This document shows, one piece after another, positions 35,783 through 54,651 of a stretch of 64,000 bases of DNA. The notes beneath the pieces were generated by a model. It had not been told where the DNA came from and made no database searches. It was given only the letters and a program-made list of their open reading frames with translations. Within the stretch, counting starts at the first letter, position 1. Each line of letters opens with the position of its first letter. This stretch comes from Synechococcus sp. CBW1107 (lineage in GTDB: Bacteria > Cyanobacteriota > Cyanobacteriia > PCC-6307 > Cyanobiaceae). Location: assembly GCF_015841355.1 (NCBI RefSeq), contig NZ_CP064908.1, positions 1,736,001 to 1,800,000 of the forward strand, written 5' to 3'. The position numbers were made by a program, and so were the translations under genes.

Positions 35783-36469
35783 TTACACCACTTGCTGGGA
35801 CGCCGCTCCGCTGCCCTCCAGCGCGCAGAACACACAGCCCGCTACGGGGTGGCCGTAGCGGGCCTGCAAGCCGCGGAAGTCGGTGCAGTCGGTGTCGCGC
35901 TTTCCGGCGTTGCAGCGGAAGCAGAGGGCCTGCAGGTTGGTGATGTCGTCTGAGCCGCCCTGGTTCTTCGGGATGATGTGGTCCACCTCGATGGCCCGCT
36001 GGTGCTCGTGCGCACCGCAGCACTCGCAGCGGCCCCGGGCGCGTGTGAGCACCCTGTATTTCACCGAGCCGCTGATCGGGCTGCGGTGGCGGCTGCGGTG
36101 GGCAAACACCTCTTCGCCGCGCTGCTCGCGGAAGGCATCGAGGCGCTGGCGGCAGAGCTCCAGCAGCTCGTCGCGCTCGCCGTCGCTCAACTCTTCGCCG
36201 CCGATCAGGCTGTAGGCGCCGTTGCCATAGGCGGTGATGCCGTTGCCGGTGAGCACCCGGCCCACCATGCGCTTCACCCGTTCGGTGTAGTACTCGATCT
36301 GGGTCACGTCTTCGCCCAGGATCCGCCGGGCCACGTCCTGCGCCGGGGCCGGGCTGCTCCTCCCCAGCAGCTCCATGAGCATGAGCGGTTGGTAGATGTG
36401 GCTCATGCGCATCCGCTCGGCGATGAATGCGCGCAAGCGAAGGAAGGCAGCTGAGGGGGGCGGGGGCAT
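35783..36469 (-). CDS. HNH endonuclease, C-terminally truncated by IS256
   Basis: The N-terminal ~120 residues are a helical domain (FLRLRAFIAERMRMSHIYQP...). The HNH nuclease follows with CECCG, AIEVDHIIPKNQGG, DITNLQALCFRC and NAGKRD. The frame then reads GCVFCALEGSGAASQ and ends QVV-stop in the IS256 terminal repeat. GCVFCALEG resembles the start of a HIT domain (CxFC), and HNH-HIT fusions exist, so a HIT domain may have been lost. ATG 36469 is chosen. It is divergent from higB across about 144 bp. Parts of its 5' region recur three times to the right. Confidence 0.75.
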   Translation of the reverse strand: MPPPPSAAFLRLRAFIAERMRMSHIYQPLMLMELLGRSSPAPAQDVARRILGEDVTQIEYYTERVKRMVGRVLTGNGITAYGNGAYSLIGGEELSDGERDELLELCRQRLDAFREQRGEEVFAHRSRHRSPISGSVKYRVLTRARGRCECCGAHEHQRAIEVDHIIPKNQGGSDDITNLQALCFRCNAGKRDTDCTDFRGLQARYGHPVAGCVFCALEGSGAASQQVV

Positions 36470-36613
36470 GGGGGCATCCTGGCTGGGTGAGACGGGGGTG
36501 GCACTTGTAAGAGGAGGAACACAGGCAATCCAGGCCGCCATGTCAGCGCGTGACCGCCTTCGCCCGGCACTACTGCCTGGCGTGCCTACGTCCGGCGGGG
36601 GTAAGGTAACGGT

Positions 36614-36892
36614 GTGATCAGGTCGTTTCGTTGCCGCGACACCCAGGCACTCTTTGAAGGCAAGCCTGGGCGCCGCTTTGGAAGCTTCGCTCGCGTGGCT
36701 TTCCGGAAGCTCGCCATCCTTGATGCGGCCGCCTGCCTCAACGATTTACAAGTTCCACCAGGCAATCGCCTGGAGCCACTCAGGGGGAACCGCCATGGCC
36801 AGCACAGCATCCGCATCAACGACCAGTTCCGGCTCTGCTTTGTCTGGACGGAAGCAGGGCCAGAGGAGGTCGAGATCGTTGACGACCACTGA
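36614..36892 (+). CDS. higB: HigB-family toxin (RelE superfamily)
   Basis: The 92-residue protein has the HigB pattern: CRDTQALFEG, a helical ARVAFRKLAILDAAACLNDL, GNRLEPLRGNRHGQHSIRIN and FRLCFVWTEAGPEEVEIVDD. Toxins of this family cleave mRNA on the ribosome. The GTG at 36614 is the start that gives the complete fold. The toxin gene precedes the antitoxin gene by 4 bases, which is the usual order for higBA. Confidence 0.9.
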   Translation: MIRSFRCRDTQALFEGKPGRRFGSFARVAFRKLAILDAAACLNDLQVPPGNRLEPLRGNRHGQHSIRINDQFRLCFVWTEAGPEEVEIVDDH

Positions 36893-36896
36893 CGTG

Positions 36897-37181
36897 ATGC
36901 TCGTGCCCCCGGGCGAGGTGCTGCTGGAGGAGTTTCTGCGGCCCATGGGGATCAGCCAGTACCGGTTGGCGCTGGCGATCGGCGTACCGGAGAGCCGCAT
37001 CAACGCAATCGTCAAAGGGCGGCGGGCGATCACTGCCGACACCGATCTGCGCCTGTGCCGTTTCTTCGGCCTGAGCGAGGGCTTCTGGCTGAGGATGCAA
37101 GGGAGCCATGATCTGAAGCAGGCCAAGCAGGCCTTGGCAAGCGTGCTGCCGGCAATCGTGCCCATCCAACCAATGGCGTGA
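36897..37181 (+). CDS. higA: HigA-family antitoxin
   Basis: The 94-residue protein opens with PPGEVLLEEFLRPMGISQYR and has an XRE helix-turn-helix (LALAIGVPESRINAIVKGRR) followed by DLRLCRFFGLSEGFWLRMQ, the HigA hallmark. It binds HigB and should repress the operon. ATG 36897 (or GTG 36894) begins right after the higB stop. The module looks intact. Confidence 0.92.
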   Translation: MLVPPGEVLLEEFLRPMGISQYRLALAIGVPESRINAIVKGRRAITADTDLRLCRFFGLSEGFWLRMQGSHDLKQAKQALASVLPAIVPIQPMA

Positions 37182-37197
37182 GCAGGCCTGACGGTTC

Positions 37198-37508
37198 AGT
37201 GCCAGCAGATGCCGCCCTCTGCGGCGCTCAGCTGCTCGCCGCCCACCACGGCGACGGTGCCCTTCTCGCAGCGGGTGATGCCGTTGAAGGTGAACCCGGC
37301 CCACCATCCGCTTCCCAGGATCCGCCGGGCCACGTCCTGCGCTGGGGCCAGGCTGCGGTGGCCCAGCAGTTCCATGAGCATCAGCGGTTGGTCGATGGGG
37401 CTCAAGCGCATCTACTTGGCGATGGTCTCGCGCAGGCGCTCGTAGGCGGCGGAGGGGGACGGGGGCATGGGGGCATCCTGGCCGGGGTGAGACGGGGGTG
37501 GCACTGGT
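37198..37508 (-). pseudogene. HNH-gene 5' fragment, copy 2
   Basis: On the minus strand this region repeats the upstream leader, start codon (37468) and first ~100 codons of the HNH gene at 35783-36469. Shared pieces include the GGGGGCATGGGGGCATCCTG start region, QPLMLMELLG and NGITRCEKGTVAVVGGE. It lacks 40 bp found in the long copy (36276-36315), so the frame is broken, and it ends before any nuclease residues. It separates higBA from hicB and is the most diverged of the copies. Confidence 0.82.
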
Positions 37509-37578
37509 GGGGGAATAGCCCAGCCTTGATGCCATGCCCTCCGTCACCCCCTCGGACAGACCTGGCGGGTCGCCTACG

Positions 37579-37818
37579 ATGAATCACCTGCAGGCAGCAG
37601 AGGCTGTGCGTACCTTCTCCGCTGTGATCGAGCGCTGCGCGGACACCGGCCTGCTTGTGGGCTACGTCCCGGGCTTTCCCGGCGCCCACAGCCAGGGGGA
37701 GACCCTCGATGAGCTGCAGGCCAACCTCCAGGAGGTGATCGCCATGCTCCTGGACGACGGCGAGCCGGCCCTGGACAGCGACTTCGTGGGCCTGCAGCAG
37801 ATCGTGGTGCCGGCCTGA
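37579..37818 (+). CDS. hicB: HicB-family antitoxin
   Basis: The 79-residue product has the partial RNase H-like fold of HicB: FSAVIERCADTGLLVGYVPG, FPGAHSQGETLDELQANLQE and VIAMLLDDGEP. It should neutralise a HicA mRNA interferase. There is no C-terminal DNA-binding extension. The ATG at 37579 is chosen over one at 37534. The downstream hicA is a decayed fragment, so this is an orphan antitoxin. Confidence 0.87.
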   Translation: MNHLQAAEAVRTFSAVIERCADTGLLVGYVPGFPGAHSQGETLDELQANLQEVIAMLLDDGEPALDSDFVGLQQIVVPA

Positions 37819-37835
37819 ACGAGGGCTCATCCCCC

Positions 37836-37983
37836 GTTCTCAAGTCCTCTGAGGTGGCGGACATTCTGAGGACGCTGCACCACAGTTCCCGTCCACAAGG
37901 GACGGGATAGTTCTCTTCCGCTGCTTCGTCAGATCGCCAAGGACATTGGCATGACCCTGGAGGAGTTCCTCAGCCACCGCTGA
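37836..37983 (+). pseudogene. hicA toxin remnant with internal deletion
   Basis: The first frame gives VLKSSEVADILRTL, the start of a HicA domain. A second frame, offset by one base, gives VPVHKGRDSSLPLLRQIAKD and then IGMTLEEFLSHR-stop, the HicA C-terminus. The intervening part, which should carry the catalytic Gly-Ser-His segment, is missing and the frames do not match. The toxin is therefore dead while its antitoxin gene is intact. Confidence 0.8.
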
Positions 37984-38002
37984 GCACCGAATCGGTGACG
38001 AG

Positions 38003-38174
38003 GCCCTGACGGCACAGCTGCAGCAGCTCGTCGCGCTCGCTGTCGCTCAGCTCGTACCCGCTGATCAGGCTGTAGTGGCCATCGCCACAGGCGGTGATGC
38101 CGTTGCCGGTGAGCACCTTGCCCACCATGCGCTTCCCAGGATCCGCCGGGCCACGTCCTGCGCCGGGGCCAGTG
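38003..38174 (-). pseudogene. HNH-gene 5' fragment, copy 3
   Basis: The minus strand reads RMVGKVLTGNGITA, YSLISGYELSDSERDELLQL and, in another frame, the AQDVARRILG region of the HNH protein. It has exactly the same 40-bp deletion as copy 2 (CGCTTC joined to CCAGGATCC), so copies 2 and 3 descend from one deleted ancestor. It lacks the start codon and the nuclease domain. It lies between hicBA and mntA-hepT. Confidence 0.85.
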
Positions 38175-38195
38175 GCGGGCAGCAGAATGGAATCC

Positions 38196-38504
38196 ATGGA
38201 TCCCACAGAGCCACCCACTCTTGAGCGGCTAAGGCAGATGGCCCCCGAGCTGCTCGCCCTCACAGCCGCCCACGGTGGCCGGGATCTTCGCGTCTTCGGC
38301 TCCGTGATCCACGGGGCGGCAGGGCTGCAGAGCGACGTGGACCTGCTGGTGGATTTCCCCTCCAGCCCCAGTTTTGAGCAGTACATGGACCTCAAGCTGG
38401 CCCTGGAAGACCTGCTCAGCGCTCGGGTGGACCTGGTGACGCGCCGCGGTCTTCGCCCTGAACTACGGCAGCGGATCGAGCAGGAGGCCATTCCGCTTGC
38501 CTGA
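38196..38504 (+). CDS. mntA: MntA-family nucleotidyltransferase antitoxin
   Basis: The 102-residue minimal nucleotidyltransferase has the GSx10DxD motif in LRVFGSVIHGAAGLQSDVDLLVDF, which coordinates Mg-ATP. In type VII TA systems such proteins AMPylate a Tyr of the HEPN toxin to inactivate it. ATG 38196 is chosen, and ATG 38187 is equivalent. Its 3' end overlaps the hepT start by 8 bases and carries the AGGAGG ribosome-binding site (38482-38487) for it. Confidence 0.9.
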   Translation: MDPTEPPTLERLRQMAPELLALTAAHGGRDLRVFGSVIHGAAGLQSDVDLLVDFPSSPSFEQYMDLKLALEDLLSARVDLVTRRGLRPELRQRIEQEAIPLA

Positions 38505-38853
38505 AAGGGGGAGTGCCCGCAATTGGTCGCTGTTCCTCCAGGACATGCAACTGTGCTGCTCCAAGGTGCTCCGATACAGCCAGGGGCTCACCAGGCAGCA
38601 ATTTCTTGCTGACGAGATGTTGGTTGACGCAGTCCTGCGCAACCTGGAGGTGCTGGGTGAAGCGGCGAAGCAGATCCCGCCGGCGTTCCGTGAGCGGCAC
38701 CCCCAAGTGCCCTGGCGACGCATTGCTGGCCTCCGCGATGTTCTGGCGCATGCCTACTTCGGCCTGGAAGAGGAGACCATCTGGCAGATCGTTTCCGAGA
38801 GCATTCCAGCCCTGGCTGACCAGTTGGACGAAGTGGCTGAGGCTGAGCGCTGA
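38497..38853 (+). CDS. hepT: HepT-family HEPN toxin RNase
   Basis: The 118-residue helical protein has the RX4HXY motif in RDVLAHAYFG, the active site and the Tyr target of AMPylation in HepT toxins. Other typical features are AVLRNLEVLGEAAKQIP and IWQIVSESIPALADQL. The TTG at 38497 is supported by AGGAGG nine bases upstream. The module mntA-hepT appears complete. Confidence 0.92.
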   Translation: MPERGSARNWSLFLQDMQLCCSKVLRYSQGLTRQQFLADEMLVDAVLRNLEVLGEAAKQIPPAFRERHPQVPWRRIAGLRDVLAHAYFGLEEETIWQIVSESIPALADQLDEVAEAER

Positions 38854-39038
38854 TGGCGGCAGAGCTCCAGCAGCGCCTCGCGCTCGCCATCGCTCAACGC
38901 GTCGCCGCCGATCAGGGAGGTCGCACCGTTGCCAGTGCGGGTGATGCCGTTGCCGCTGAGCGCCTTGCCCACCGCGTGCATCCGCTCGGCGATGAACGTG
39001 CGAAGGCGAAGGAAGGCAGCCGAGGGGCTGGAGGCCAT
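38851..39038 (-). pseudogene. HNH-gene 5' fragment, copy 4
   Basis: The minus strand starts at ATG 39038 with MASSPSAAFLRLRTFIAERM and jumps to VGKALSGNGITRTGNGATSL and GDALSDGEREALLELC. Relative to the long HNH gene, about 40 codons around the MSHIYQP...VKRM segment are missing, a different deletion from copies 2 and 3. The nuclease domain is absent. It directly abuts the hepT stop codon. Confidence 0.85.
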
Positions 39039-39150
39039 GGAGTGATGGTGGCGGCTGCCGGGCGACCGGGCCAGGTCTGGTTTTGGGCGGCCCAACCCGC
39101 CGATCGCGGCAAGACTGCGGGCTCACCACACGGCCGTGCCCTGGTGAGCC

Positions 39151-49936: not shown

Positions 49937-50113
49937 CCCCTGCAGGTGTCGCTTTGTGAAAACCTCCTGACCAGGGCCTGAACCGGGAGAGCCTGCACGA
50001 GCGCGGCGATCATCGTCGATGAGCTGTTCGGCCGGCTGGGCCTTCCCTTTCGGCTCCTTCCGCGATCCCAATGCCCCCCACACCACCCGGTGGGATGGCC
50101 GTCACCCCAGGAC

Positions 50114-51676
50114 ATGCGCATGGCTGCCGTGCTGATCCAGGCCCCAGGGCTGATGCCCGCGTTGCTCGTGGCCGTGGCGGGCCTCCTGGTCTGGGCGGTC
50201 TGGCGCTGGCGGCGACACTTTGCGCCCCTGCGACAGCTGCCTGCGCCGCCGGGTGTTCCCCTGCTCGGGAACATCCCGGCGGTGCTCTCCGCCGTGCGCC
50301 ACAAGCGCTTCTTTCAGCTCCTGCATGCCTGGAGCCAGGCCTATGGGCCGGTGTTCGTGTACTGGGCCGGCAAGCCCGTGGTGGTGCTCAGCCGGCCTGA
50401 CCTGATCGAGAACACGATCGTGCAGGGAATGCGCTCCGGCAGCCTGATCCGCTCCCCCGGTACCCGGCAGGCCTGGAATGACATGCGCGGCCCGATCCTG
50501 ATCGGCGAGGAGGGCCCGGCATGGCAGTGGCGGCGCAGGGCCTGGAATCCGGAATTCACCACCACCAGCGTTGCCGCCCATCTGCCCCTGCTCCAGCAGG
50601 CCAGCGCACAGGTTCTGGAGCGGCTCGAGCAGGCACCGGCCGGGCAGGCCATCGCGCTGGATCCCCTGTTCGTGGAGCTGGCCATGCGGGTCATCGCCGC
50701 CCTGATGCTGGGCATTCCCGTGGAGGAAGGTGCCGCAACTCCCGAGGGCCCACCCCTGGATGTGGCCCGCACCTATGACGCCATGGCCGTGCTGGGGTAC
50801 CGCTTTCTCCGCCTCGCCACCGGCGAGAGCCGTTGGCTGAAGTTTCTCCCGATCCGAGCCTCGCGCCAGTACTGGGCAGCCCGCCGGCAGCTGGACGATC
50901 TGCTCGCCACCCGGGTGGCCCTGGCACTGCGCCTCAGGGACGGGGAGGCCGGCGATGAGGCGCGCGTCGCTCCGCTGTTCCGCCAGTCGCTGCTGGTGCG
51001 GATGGCGGCCAAGGAGCCCCGCTACGACCAGGACTCCCTGATTGCCGAGGCCATTGAATTTCTGATCGCCGGTACCGATACCACCGCCCACACCCTCTCC
51101 TTCGCCGCAGGCTCCCTGGCCCTGCATCCCGATGTCCTGGCCCGGGTCAGGCAGGAGGTGGATCAGGCCTGGGAGCGGCATGGCGGCCTGACGCCGGCGT
51201 GCATCGGCGCCCTGGATCTGGTGCGAGGGGTGATCAAGGAAACACTCCGCCTGTTTTCGGTGGCCTCGGGCTCCACCTCCCTGCAGGTGGTGAAGCAGAC
51301 GGACTTGGCAGGGATCGGCCAGCTACCGGTGGGTACCTTCCTGATCTGGTCGATGCTGGGGGCTGGGCGGGATCCCCAGGCCTACCCCAGGCCGCTGGAG
51401 TTCCTGCCGGAACGCTGGCTCCAGGCCGGTGCGGGAGCGCCCTTGCCCCCGATGATCGACTTCGGCTCAGGGACCCACCGCTGCATCGGCGAACACCTGG
51501 CGATGCTGGAGGCCACGGTGATGCTGGCCCAGCTGCTGCGCCATTACGACTGGGAGCTGGTCAACGGCCCGGCCTCCCTGGAGAACCAGGAGCAGAACCT
51601 GCTGATCTATCCCGCCGACGGCATGCCCGTGCGGATCCGGCCACGGGTGATGCAGGCCGGCGCGGGCCTTTCATGA
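50114..51676 (+). CDS. Cytochrome P450
   Basis: This 520-residue P450 has a hydrophobic N-terminal anchor (LLVAVAGLLVWAVWRW), the Pro-rich LPAPPGVPLLGN hinge, the I-helix oxygen-binding motif LIAGTDTTAHT, the K-helix KETLRL and the heme loop FGSGTHRCIGEHLAMLE with the Cys ligand. The layout matches cyanobacterial CYP families with unknown terpene or fatty-acid substrates. ATG 50114 or 50120 could be the start. No redox partner gene lies nearby. Confidence 0.92.
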   Translation: MRMAAVLIQAPGLMPALLVAVAGLLVWAVWRWRRHFAPLRQLPAPPGVPLLGNIPAVLSAVRHKRFFQLLHAWSQAYGPVFVYWAGKPVVVLSRPDLIENTIVQGMRSGSLIRSPGTRQAWNDMRGPILIGEEGPAWQWRRRAWNPEFTTTSVAAHLPLLQQASAQVLERLEQAPAGQAIALDPLFVELAMRVIAALMLGIPVEEGAATPEGPPLDVARTYDAMAVLGYRFLRLATGESRWLKFLPIRASRQYWAARRQLDDLLATRVALALRLRDGEAGDEARVAPLFRQSLLVRMAAKEPRYDQDSLIAEAIEFLIAGTDTTAHTLSFAAGSLALHPDVLARVRQEVDQAWERHGGLTPACIGALDLVRGVIKETLRLFSVASGSTSLQVVKQTDLAGIGQLPVGTFLIWSMLGAGRDPQAYPRPLEFLPERWLQAGAGAPLPPMIDFGSGTHRCIGEHLAMLEATVMLAQLLRHYDWELVNGPASLENQEQNLLIYPADGMPVRIRPRVMQAGAGLS

Positions 51677-52669: not shown

Positions 52670-52989
52670 ACTGGAGCGCGGATCAAGCAGCCAGCTCCCT
52701 CAAGCCACAGCAGCCTGACGCTGAGGTGATACCGGAGCGGAGATCCTGGACGCAAGATCTGCATAGAGAGTGGCACGCCGTGGTCTGAGGCCTATGTTCA
52801 GACAATGATCCAGGCAATCCGCGTGCGCCCAGCGGGTGGATTGTCGGGACATCTTTGCGATCATCTCTCATCGCGACTGGCCCTCATCGCGAGGGCCTGA
52901 ATCCTGTTGTGGAAGTGTTGCTGAGGGTCGATCAGTCCTGGCTCGAAGTCTTCGAGAACTTGCTGCAGACTCATCCTGGTCTCTCCCCC
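52670..52989. other. Upstream region of the urea transporter gene
   Basis: No gene is supported here. The transporter frame is open from 52855, but the sequence before ATG 52990 has no membrane segment, so it is treated as leader. Confidence 0.4.
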
Positions 52990-54651
52990 ATGTCCCATTC
53001 CGCAGGACCTCACAACCCGACCCACGCTTTCGATCTGCTGGCCCACTTTGTGGATCCACCCAGCCCCCACCCCCGGAGGCCCTGGCTGCCTACGGCGGGA
53101 ACCCTGCCGCAGTTCGGACATCGTCTGGGTGGACAACCTGCGGTTGTCTCGTTAACCAGTGCCCTGCGCAGTCTGGGGCAGGTGATCTTCATCAACAACC
53201 CGATCAGTGGCCTGTTGCTGCTGCTGGCCCTGCTCTGGCAATCGCCGGCGATGGGGATCTTCGCGGCGCTGGGAATCGCCACGGCAAACATCACATCCCT
53301 CGTGATCGGTGGCGATCGCAGTGCACGCCACAACGGCATCTATGGGTTCAATGGAGCGCTCGTGGGCAGTGCCGCAGCCGCCTTCGCCACCCTGGATGGC
53401 CATCTCAGCCTGCTGGCCTGGATGCCGTTGGTGGCCGTTGGGGCAGCCCTCACCACGCTGCTGCTCGTGAACCTGGGAGGCTGGCTGATCAGGCATCTCG
53501 GCGTGCCGCCCCTCACCCTGCCGTTCTGCCTGATCACCTGGGTGGTCCTGGCCCTGGTGATGGCCCTCAATCATCCGGCCCTGACCCTGATGGCGTCGGG
53601 CTCTGCCATAGGCCAGGCCCCTGCCGGCTTGGACCTGCTGCAGGGGGTGGTGCGGGGTTTCGGACAGGTGTTTCTCTGCCCATCACTGCCCAGTGGCCTG
53701 TTCGTTCTGGTGGCCGTCGCCGCCGGCAGCCCTCTGGCCGCCCTGCTGGGTGTGGCCGGGGGGCTGGTCTCCAGCCTCACGGCCCTGGCCATGGGCATGG
53801 ATGCCGGTAGCGTCGCCCTGGGGCTCGGCAGCTACAACGGCGTGCTCACCGCCATCGCGATCGGCGGCACGTTCTACGCCACGACCCGTGAGAGCCTGCT
53901 GATCGCCTTGCTCGCGGCAGCTGGATCAAGCCTGGTGACACCGCCTCTGGCCCAGACCCTTGCCGCAGCCCGGCTGCCCCTGCTCACCTTTCCGTTCGTG
54001 GTGGCCACCATGGCCACGATGGTGGCGGTACGCCGGGCACGTCCCACTCTGCTGCCGGTGGCCCTGCACTCGGTGCTCACGCCCGAGGAACATCGCCAAC
54101 GCTTCATCACCGCCCGATCGCTGCTGAAGCAGTTTCGCCGCCAGCTGCAGCGGGCGATCTCCGGTGAGAGGCAACCGATGCTCATGGCACAGGCCGATGC
54201 CGCCCAGCGTCAGGAACTCCAGAACCTGTTCGAGGAACTCGACCGTGATGGCAGCGGCAGCCTCAGCGTGGCGGAGCTTGCCACGGGGCTCATGCAGCGC
54301 CAGAGCGTGAACCGCGCCGACGTCACCAGCCGTCAACGATTTCTGCTGTTTCAGTCGATCCTGAAGCGGATGGATCTCGATGGCGATGGCCGGGTGGATC
54401 CCGAGGAATTCGGTGAACTGATGCTGCGTCTTCGTCGTTTGAAGGCTGGGCGCTCAGAGCTGCTCACCTACCTGCAACCGGCCGATGCCGACGGCAATGC
54501 CGAGCTCGACCCAGCCGAGCTCGACCGGCTGCTGGTGAGCGTCGGGCAGCCCCGCCTCCGGGAGCAGGAACACCAGGCGGTGTTCGCCGGTGGCGCCGCC
54601 GGCCCTGGCCTGAGCTGGGGACGCTTTCTCGATCTGCTGCTGCTGACCTGA
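52990..54651 (+). CDS. Urea transporter fused to three EF-hands
   Basis: The 553-residue protein has two parts. Residues ~55-365 are a urea-transporter (UT) channel with duplicated halves: GQVIFINNPISGLLLLLALL and GFNGALVGSAA in the first, and GQVFLCPSLPSGLFVLVAVA and GSYNGVLTAIAIGG in the second. After a linker come three EF-hand loops: DRDGSGSLSVAE (418-429), DLDGDGRVDPEE (462-473) and DADGNAELDPAE (499-510), all with acidic residues at calcium-binding positions. Bacterial UT proteins are usually 300-340 residues, so the calcium-binding tail is a notable addition that could gate urea flow. Confidence 0.87.
   Translation: MSHSAGPHNPTHAFDLLAHFVDPPSPHPRRPWLPTAGTLPQFGHRLGGQPAVVSLTSALRSLGQVIFINNPISGLLLLLALLWQSPAMGIFAALGIATANITSLVIGGDRSARHNGIYGFNGALVGSAAAAFATLDGHLSLLAWMPLVAVGAALTTLLLVNLGGWLIRHLGVPPLTLPFCLITWVVLALVMALNHPALTLMASGSAIGQAPAGLDLLQGVVRGFGQVFLCPSLPSGLFVLVAVAAGSPLAALLGVAGGLVSSLTALAMGMDAGSVALGLGSYNGVLTAIAIGGTFYATTRESLLIALLAAAGSSLVTPPLAQTLAAARLPLLTFPFVVATMATMVAVRRARPTLLPVALHSVLTPEEHRQRFITARSLLKQFRRQLQRAISGERQPMLMAQADAAQRQELQNLFEELDRDGSGSLSVAELATGLMQRQSVNRADVTSRQRFLLFQSILKRMDLDGDGRVDPEEFGELMLRLRRLKAGRSELLTYLQPADADGNAELDPAELDRLLVSVGQPRLREQEHQAVFAGGAAGPGLSWGRFLDLLLLT

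Follow-up and report, generated by a model that had tools for sequence, protein, structure and literature searches.

A calmodulin-like EF-hand module on a urea channel of Synechococcus and other cyanobacteria, with a possible role in calcium-responsive nitrogen use

Why would a cyanobacterial urea channel carry EF-hands? The question is raised by a gene, referred to here as UT-EF, that lies in a window of 64,000 nucleotides from Synechococcus sp. CBW1107 (contig NZ_CP064908.1, positions 1,736,001 to 1,800,000). The host genome is a single contig of 3.2-Mb and it has one UT gene. The original prediction was that a complete UT-type channel and three EF-hand loops with good ligand positions are encoded in one frame, and Pfam searches, a scan for EF-hand loops and an alignment of homologues all agree with it. 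The features of the locus are listed in Table 1.

Table 1. Features of the UT-EF locus; positions are those of the 64,000-nucleotide window.
Feature	Position	Strand	Evidence
Relict 3' end of an EF-hand-arginase gene, 28 codons	52882..52965	+	Peptide alignment, DNA alignment
UT-EF gene, urea channel plus calmodulin-like EF-hand module, 553 aa	52990..54651	+	ORF, Pfam, homologue alignment
UT (SLC14-type) channel domain, residues 57-346	53158..54027	+	PF03253, Foldseek
Linker from the last membrane helix to the EF-hand module, one long basic helix (residues 365-391)	54040..54195	+	Alignment, AlphaFold
EF-hand loop 1, residues 418-429, DRDGSGSLSVAE	54241..54276	+	Pfam, alignment
EF-hand loop 2, residues 462-473, DLDGDGRVDPEE	54373..54408	+	Pfam, alignment
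EF-hand loop 3, residues 499-510, DADGNAELDPAE	54484..54519	+	Loop pattern; kept in all 19 homologues
Degenerate fourth EF-hand, residues 525-552, lacking Ca2+ ligands	54562..54645	+	AlphaFold, alignment

The UT-EF reading frame runs from an ATG to a TGA and has no internal stops. Channel homology begins at the ATG at 52990 in the alignment of homologues; the frame stays open upstream of it, to 52855 and beyond, because this stretch is a leftover of the 3' end of an EF-hand arginase gene (see below). Nineteen homologues were aligned, with identities of 34-60%. The copy closest to UT-EF, also in the tree, is in a genome of the same genus (G442; 75% amino acid identity). Compared with that copy, the UT half has a dN of 0.126 and a dS of 0.37 and the EF half a dN of 0.141 and a dS of 0.414, i.e., a dN/dS of about 0.34 for each, and purifying selection acts on both halves alike. 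The original prediction would have failed if an assembly or sequencing error had put a UT gene and an EF-hand gene together. We rejected this artefact, for which there is practically no chance, because many independent genomes have full-length single-frame orthologues, with identities as low as 34%, and because both halves are under purifying selection.

The window also contains a cytochrome P450 gene upstream of UT-EF (PF00067, E 4e-65; 50090-51676). Farther away, at 36173-39053, several short spots have their matches in two shared segments, 844-1025 and 1773-2601, of the G442 locus (L071), and these matches point to a putative repeat family; Tandem Repeats Finder detected no arrays in 36173-39053.

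The channel part of UT-EF belongs to the UT family (PF03253, E 4.8e-69; 233 bits, cut-off 25; model positions 3-290 of 292). An AlphaFold model made from the 19-sequence alignment has a mean pLDDT of 82.5 and a pTM of 0.80, and its channel part has the duplicated UT fold, with a pLDDT of about 90-97 over most of it. When the model was compared with the PDB by Foldseek, the top matches were human UT-A/UT-B and Desulfovibrio dvUT (E about 1e-15 to 1e-16, TM (target) 0.82-0.89); calmodulins ranked after them. UT-EF residues Q64, F67, N69-G74, F120, L124, T176, Q226, Y282, L286 and T333 align with dvUT, and they include the Gln, Phe, Leu and Thr positions that we take to line the dvUT pore and the NNPxSG signature. 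Some filamentous homologues have a glycine in place of one pore threonine.

The EF-hand region follows, at residues about 404-552. The Pfam models EF-hand_1/5/6/7/8 match UT-EF at about 408-479, all above their cut-offs. Three loops have the canonical form, i.e., 12 residues with an acidic residue, Asn or Ser at positions 1, 3 and 5 and Glu at position 12, whereas 5000 shuffles of the UT-EF protein contained a mean of 0.006 such loops and none of the shuffles reached three. Every one of the 19 homologues has Ca2+-compatible residues at positions 1, 3, 5 and 12 of each of the three loops; the other loop positions vary. In the AlphaFold model, the UT fold, a helix at 365-391 and four helix-loop-helix units follow each other, the module has a long central helix, and the fourth unit, with a degenerate loop, consists of helices 525-533 and 543-552 and a conserved W..F....LLLT ending. 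The helix-loop-helix units are paired, and the module matches calmodulin in Foldseek. XopAW-type EF-hand effectors (NF041410) match only through the EF repeats, at 43.7 bits against a cut-off of 120.

The C termini of UTs are cytosolic in the solved relatives, and the net charge of the linker is positive in all 19 homologues; for these two reasons the EF-hand sensor should face the cytosol. By analogy, the linker could act like the junction of CDPKs. However, its hydrophobic moment does not exceed that of shuffles of the linker itself, so that a CDPK-like capture of the linker lacks statistical support.

How widespread is this architecture? The original prediction proposed a search across genomes, and we examined 390 genomes from the class of the host and 300 from its family. 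UT genes are present in 24 of the 390 class genomes; 16 of these encode UT-EF, eight encode a UT fused to a peptidase M23 domain, and none encodes a bare UT. The 16 genomes come from five families, one of which consists of unicellular picocyanobacteria. In the family sample, 31 of the 300 genomes have UT-EF or its remains, and thus the prevalence is about 4% in the class sample and 10% in the family sample. Every UT in the two samples that is not an M23 fusion has the UT-EF architecture, and the M23 fusions form a clade apart from UT-EF (support 100/100). M23 peptidases normally act on the cell wall, outside the cytosol, and therefore their attachment to a cytosolic UT C terminus is a topological puzzle. 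Outside the cyanobacteria, a search of a plasmid collection for UT-EF yielded matches to the UT domain alone, and three UT loci, from Sinorhizobium, Peribacillus and Shinella, have a bare UT or no room for an EF-hand part. The earlier statement that bacterial urea channels are normally short is thus true of the rhizobial and Bacillus-type UTs examined and fails for those of the sampled cyanobacteria, all of which carry EF-hands or M23.

Several UT-EF copies in the family sample are broken by frameshifts, deletions or insertions; decaying copies include L056, L058, L059, L060 and L006, with frameshifts, an internal deletion and an interruption. The patchy distribution and the decay in several genomes mean that UT-EF is dispensable. 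The gene is old, accessory and often lost.

The neighbours of UT-EF display a more informative pattern. In many relatives, a gene of the same orientation lies directly upstream, and its product has EF-hands at the N terminus and an arginase domain behind them (490-509 aa, pI 4.5-5.1; PF00491, 2e-48). The arginase model TIGR01229 gives this EF-arginase 189-198 bits, below the cut-off of 227.6, and the agmatinase (54-58) and formimidoylglutamase (72) scores are far lower still. Its solved relatives are arginases, and the arginase motifs GDHS, DAHxD, SGNxHG and DVDxxD are present in all eight sequences examined. The protein is therefore predicted from its sequence to produce urea. A profile search detected it in eight of the 390 genomes; all eight are among the 16 UT-EF genomes, and the two genes are adjacent every time (hypergeometric probabilities of 1e-12 for the class and 6e-8 within the family, which ignore shared ancestry). 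UT-EF starts about 11 nt inside the arginase gene in G174, where the stop and start codons overlap; in G201 and G255, it starts 4 and 56 nt after the arginase stop, respectively. One of the eight EF-arginases is frameshifted (G132), one has an unrecognisable EF-hand part (G119) and one is cut by a contig end (G370). G370 is from another family (f12), and its UT-EF falls in the filamentous clade; therefore, the two genes were either paired long ago or transferred together.

In 22 further UT genomes of the family, EF-arginase is full-length in seven and partial or interrupted in three. The arginase of G540 is interrupted by about 1.75 kb. EF-arginase lies upstream of UT-EF at L062, L064, L066, L067, L068, L069, L072, L074 and L075. 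Among the matches listed for an EF-arginase query of the plasmid collection, none covered the EF-hand part. EF-hand pairs are rare in the genomes that have both genes: in G174 and G201, PF13499 finds only two, UT-EF and its arginase neighbour. Schriek 2007 described a 492-aa ureohydrolase with a pI of 4.48 in Synechococcus WH 7805 (WH7805_06086); its size and pI fit the EF-arginases, and it is a candidate member.

A different enzyme is adjacent to UT-EF in four genomes (G077, G243, G340 and G305), of larger and probably filamentous cyanobacteria. Here, the neighbour is a metallophosphoesterase/5'-nucleotidase with C-terminal EF-hands (L080:5070-6767, L079:5427-7091, L093 and L095/L099), frameshifted in G305. 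These EF-nucleotidases have no obvious signal peptide, and a nucleoside hydrolase gene is nearby at two of the loci. Together with the eight arginases, 12 of the 16 UT-EF genes are thus beside an enzyme of nitrogen or nucleotide degradation from an EF-hand-bearing family. These neighbouring genes support the suggestion that the fusion connects nitrogen use with Ca2+ much more strongly than the sequence of UT-EF by itself could.

What happened in the strain of the window? EF-arginase and EF-nucleotidase are both absent from its genome. However, the relict frame upstream of UT-EF, PHREGLNPVVEVLLRVDQSWLEVFENLL, aligns with the EF-arginase C terminus, PHLDSLNTLAEVSLSVYQDVLEVLDSRL, and among 2000 shuffles none did as well against the five best targets. 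In addition, window 52881-54651 aligns with the G442 locus (L071, 6800-8561) in one unbroken DNA alignment, and that locus has a longer arginase remnant, decayed yet recognisable. Therefore, the strain descends from one that had the arginase/UT-EF pair. Repeated loss of this cassette is under way.

The genome has two ureohydrolases, both without EF-hands, which appear from sequence to be agmatinase-like and Sll1077-like. The latter (contig C1, 1664517-1665341; L082) is of the guanidine hydrolase or guanidinobutyrase type and is a possible further internal source of urea. Besides UT-EF, just one gene with an EF-hand pair was detected in the genome (C1, 708172-708402; L100:296-1042). Its frame of 248 aa has a hydrophobic, signal-like segment ahead of the EF-hands, and its product is perhaps an exported Ca2+-binding protein. 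Urease alpha is present in this genome and in all 16 UT-EF genomes, which is weak evidence for a connection because 84% of the class sample also have urease. UrtA has a strong match in the genome (E 8e-173) and is present in nearly all UT-EF genomes, with only a distant match in G335; thus, UT-EF usually supplements the Urt ABC importer and is not a substitute for it. A scan for promoters found none. NtcA regulation was set aside because no strict NtcA box (GTAN8TAC) is present within 300 nt upstream of UT-EF or the arginase-UT pair at the loci checked.

We think it fairly probable that UT-EF is a facilitative urea channel that responds to Ca2+ and works with Ca2+-responsive enzymes of nitrogen catabolism; the domains, ligands and gene partnerships described above are consistent with this role, and both Ca2+ binding and gating are inferred. 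The protein would be an inner-membrane channel of the SLC14/UT fold with a calmodulin-like Ca2+ sensor at its cytosolic C terminus. At the resting Ca2+ level, the EF-hand module would act through the basic linker helix to keep the channel in one state. A rise in cytosolic Ca2+, e.g., under stress, at a light-dark change or at nitrogen step-down, would load the module with Ca2+, and the loaded module would shift its grip on the linker and alter the urea permeability. The EF-hands of the partner enzyme would simultaneously tune the release of urea or nucleosides, and the unit would match the urea permeability of the membrane to internal nitrogen catabolism. Cytosolic Ca2+ in cyanobacteria is about 0.2 uM at rest and reaches about 4 uM in transients (PMC7065334), a range that EF-hands can read. 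There may be an even chance that the genes form a cassette in which a single cytosolic Ca2+ signal governs urea production as well as urea permeability, with UT-EF beside EF-arginase or EF-5'-nucleotidase; the window would show a member that lost the enzyme and kept the channel. In this strain, which also has urease and the Urt ABC importer, the channel would serve urea made by the agmatinase or the Sll1077-like ureohydrolase, or urea from outside.

Other explanations deserve consideration. Ca2+ binding might serve docking, so that EF-arginase or EF-nucleotidase is held at the mouth of the channel, urea is passed on locally and Ca2+ tunes the complex and not the pore. The same type of module on the partner enzymes and the operon-like layout, including the overlapping codons in G174, would fit such a complex. 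However, EF pairs in different proteins rarely bind each other and the strain of the window retains the channel and its EF-hand ligands with no partner, which makes docking unlikely. We regard it as improbable, too, that UT-EF is a plain low-affinity uptake channel for nitrogen nutrition, in which the module is constitutively loaded with Ca2+ and contributes only stability. Many bacterial EF-hands are structural, and the presence of urease in all of the UT-EF genomes and of UrtA in nearly all of them is in keeping with simple uptake. A calmodulin-like module that combines canonical loops with a long central helix, should face a cytosol low in Ca2+ and recurs on neighbouring enzymes is not what this explanation would lead one to expect.

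A substrate different from urea, e.g., guanidine or some other small amide, is very doubtful. The guanidine hydrolase-like gene in the genome and the glycine at a pore position in some filamentous homologues would be compatible with this idea, but the NNPxSG signature and the remaining pore positions agree with dvUT and UT-A/UT-B, and urea is the predicted product of the partner enzyme in Cyanobiaceae-type genomes. The Ca2+-responsive channel itself has to contend with a gene that is patchy and decayed in several genomes, with a strain that lacks both EF-hand partner enzymes and with the absence of a strict NtcA box.

UT channels and EF-hands are known families; their fusion and shared neighbourhood appear to be undescribed. 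No report of UT-EF, EF-arginase, EF-nucleotidase or their neighbourhood was found in the open-licence literature, and one may exist elsewhere. A review of cyanobacterial urea genes names no system but Urt ABC for the phylum (PMC6737895). Direct effectors of Ca2+ in bacteria are largely unknown, and Ca2+ signalling mechanisms in cyanobacteria have been called 'virtually unknown' (PMC7065334). UT-EF and the EF-hand-bearing enzymes beside it would be testable direct targets, and a channel and enzymes with sensors would tie a bacterial Ca2+ signal to the turnover of urea and arginine.

Several known systems resemble parts of UT-EF. The channel shares its fold and signature with dvUT of Desulfovibrio vulgaris (PDB 3k3f/3k3g; phmmer E 2e-37, Foldseek E 8e-16, TM (target) 0.89) and with mammalian UT-B/UT-A (SLC14). 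The structures of these proteins have no EF-hands, whereas UT-EF adds about 150 cytosolic residues that form the calmodulin-like module. The best NCBIfam match of the channel part is the Yersinia-type Yut (TIGR03441); its 169.5 bits are below the cut-off of 274.6, and we do not file UT-EF as a Yut. To our knowledge, Yut lacks an EF-hand module. The M23 fusions (L022-L029) also have an extra C-terminal domain on a UT, but this is PF01551 (tested on L028) and not EF-hands, and their UT clade is deeply separate. The EF-hand module matches calmodulin by sequence (E about 1e-10) and by fold (from E 8e-7), and the isolated C-terminal module matches the calmodulin-like domain of a CDPK (3khe; 7e-6). 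As in the CDPKs, a regulated part, a helical junction and a calmodulin-like part are on one chain; the differences are that three of the four loops in UT-EF are predicted to be Ca2+-capable and that the regulated part would be a channel and not a kinase. Finally, the cyanobacterial EF-hand protein CSE (Ca2+ sensor EF-hand), described in PMC7065334 as the sole Ca2+ sensor known from Anabaena, is also tied to nitrogen metabolism; it is a small free protein that is almost exclusive to filamentous species, whereas UT-EF is a membrane channel fusion.
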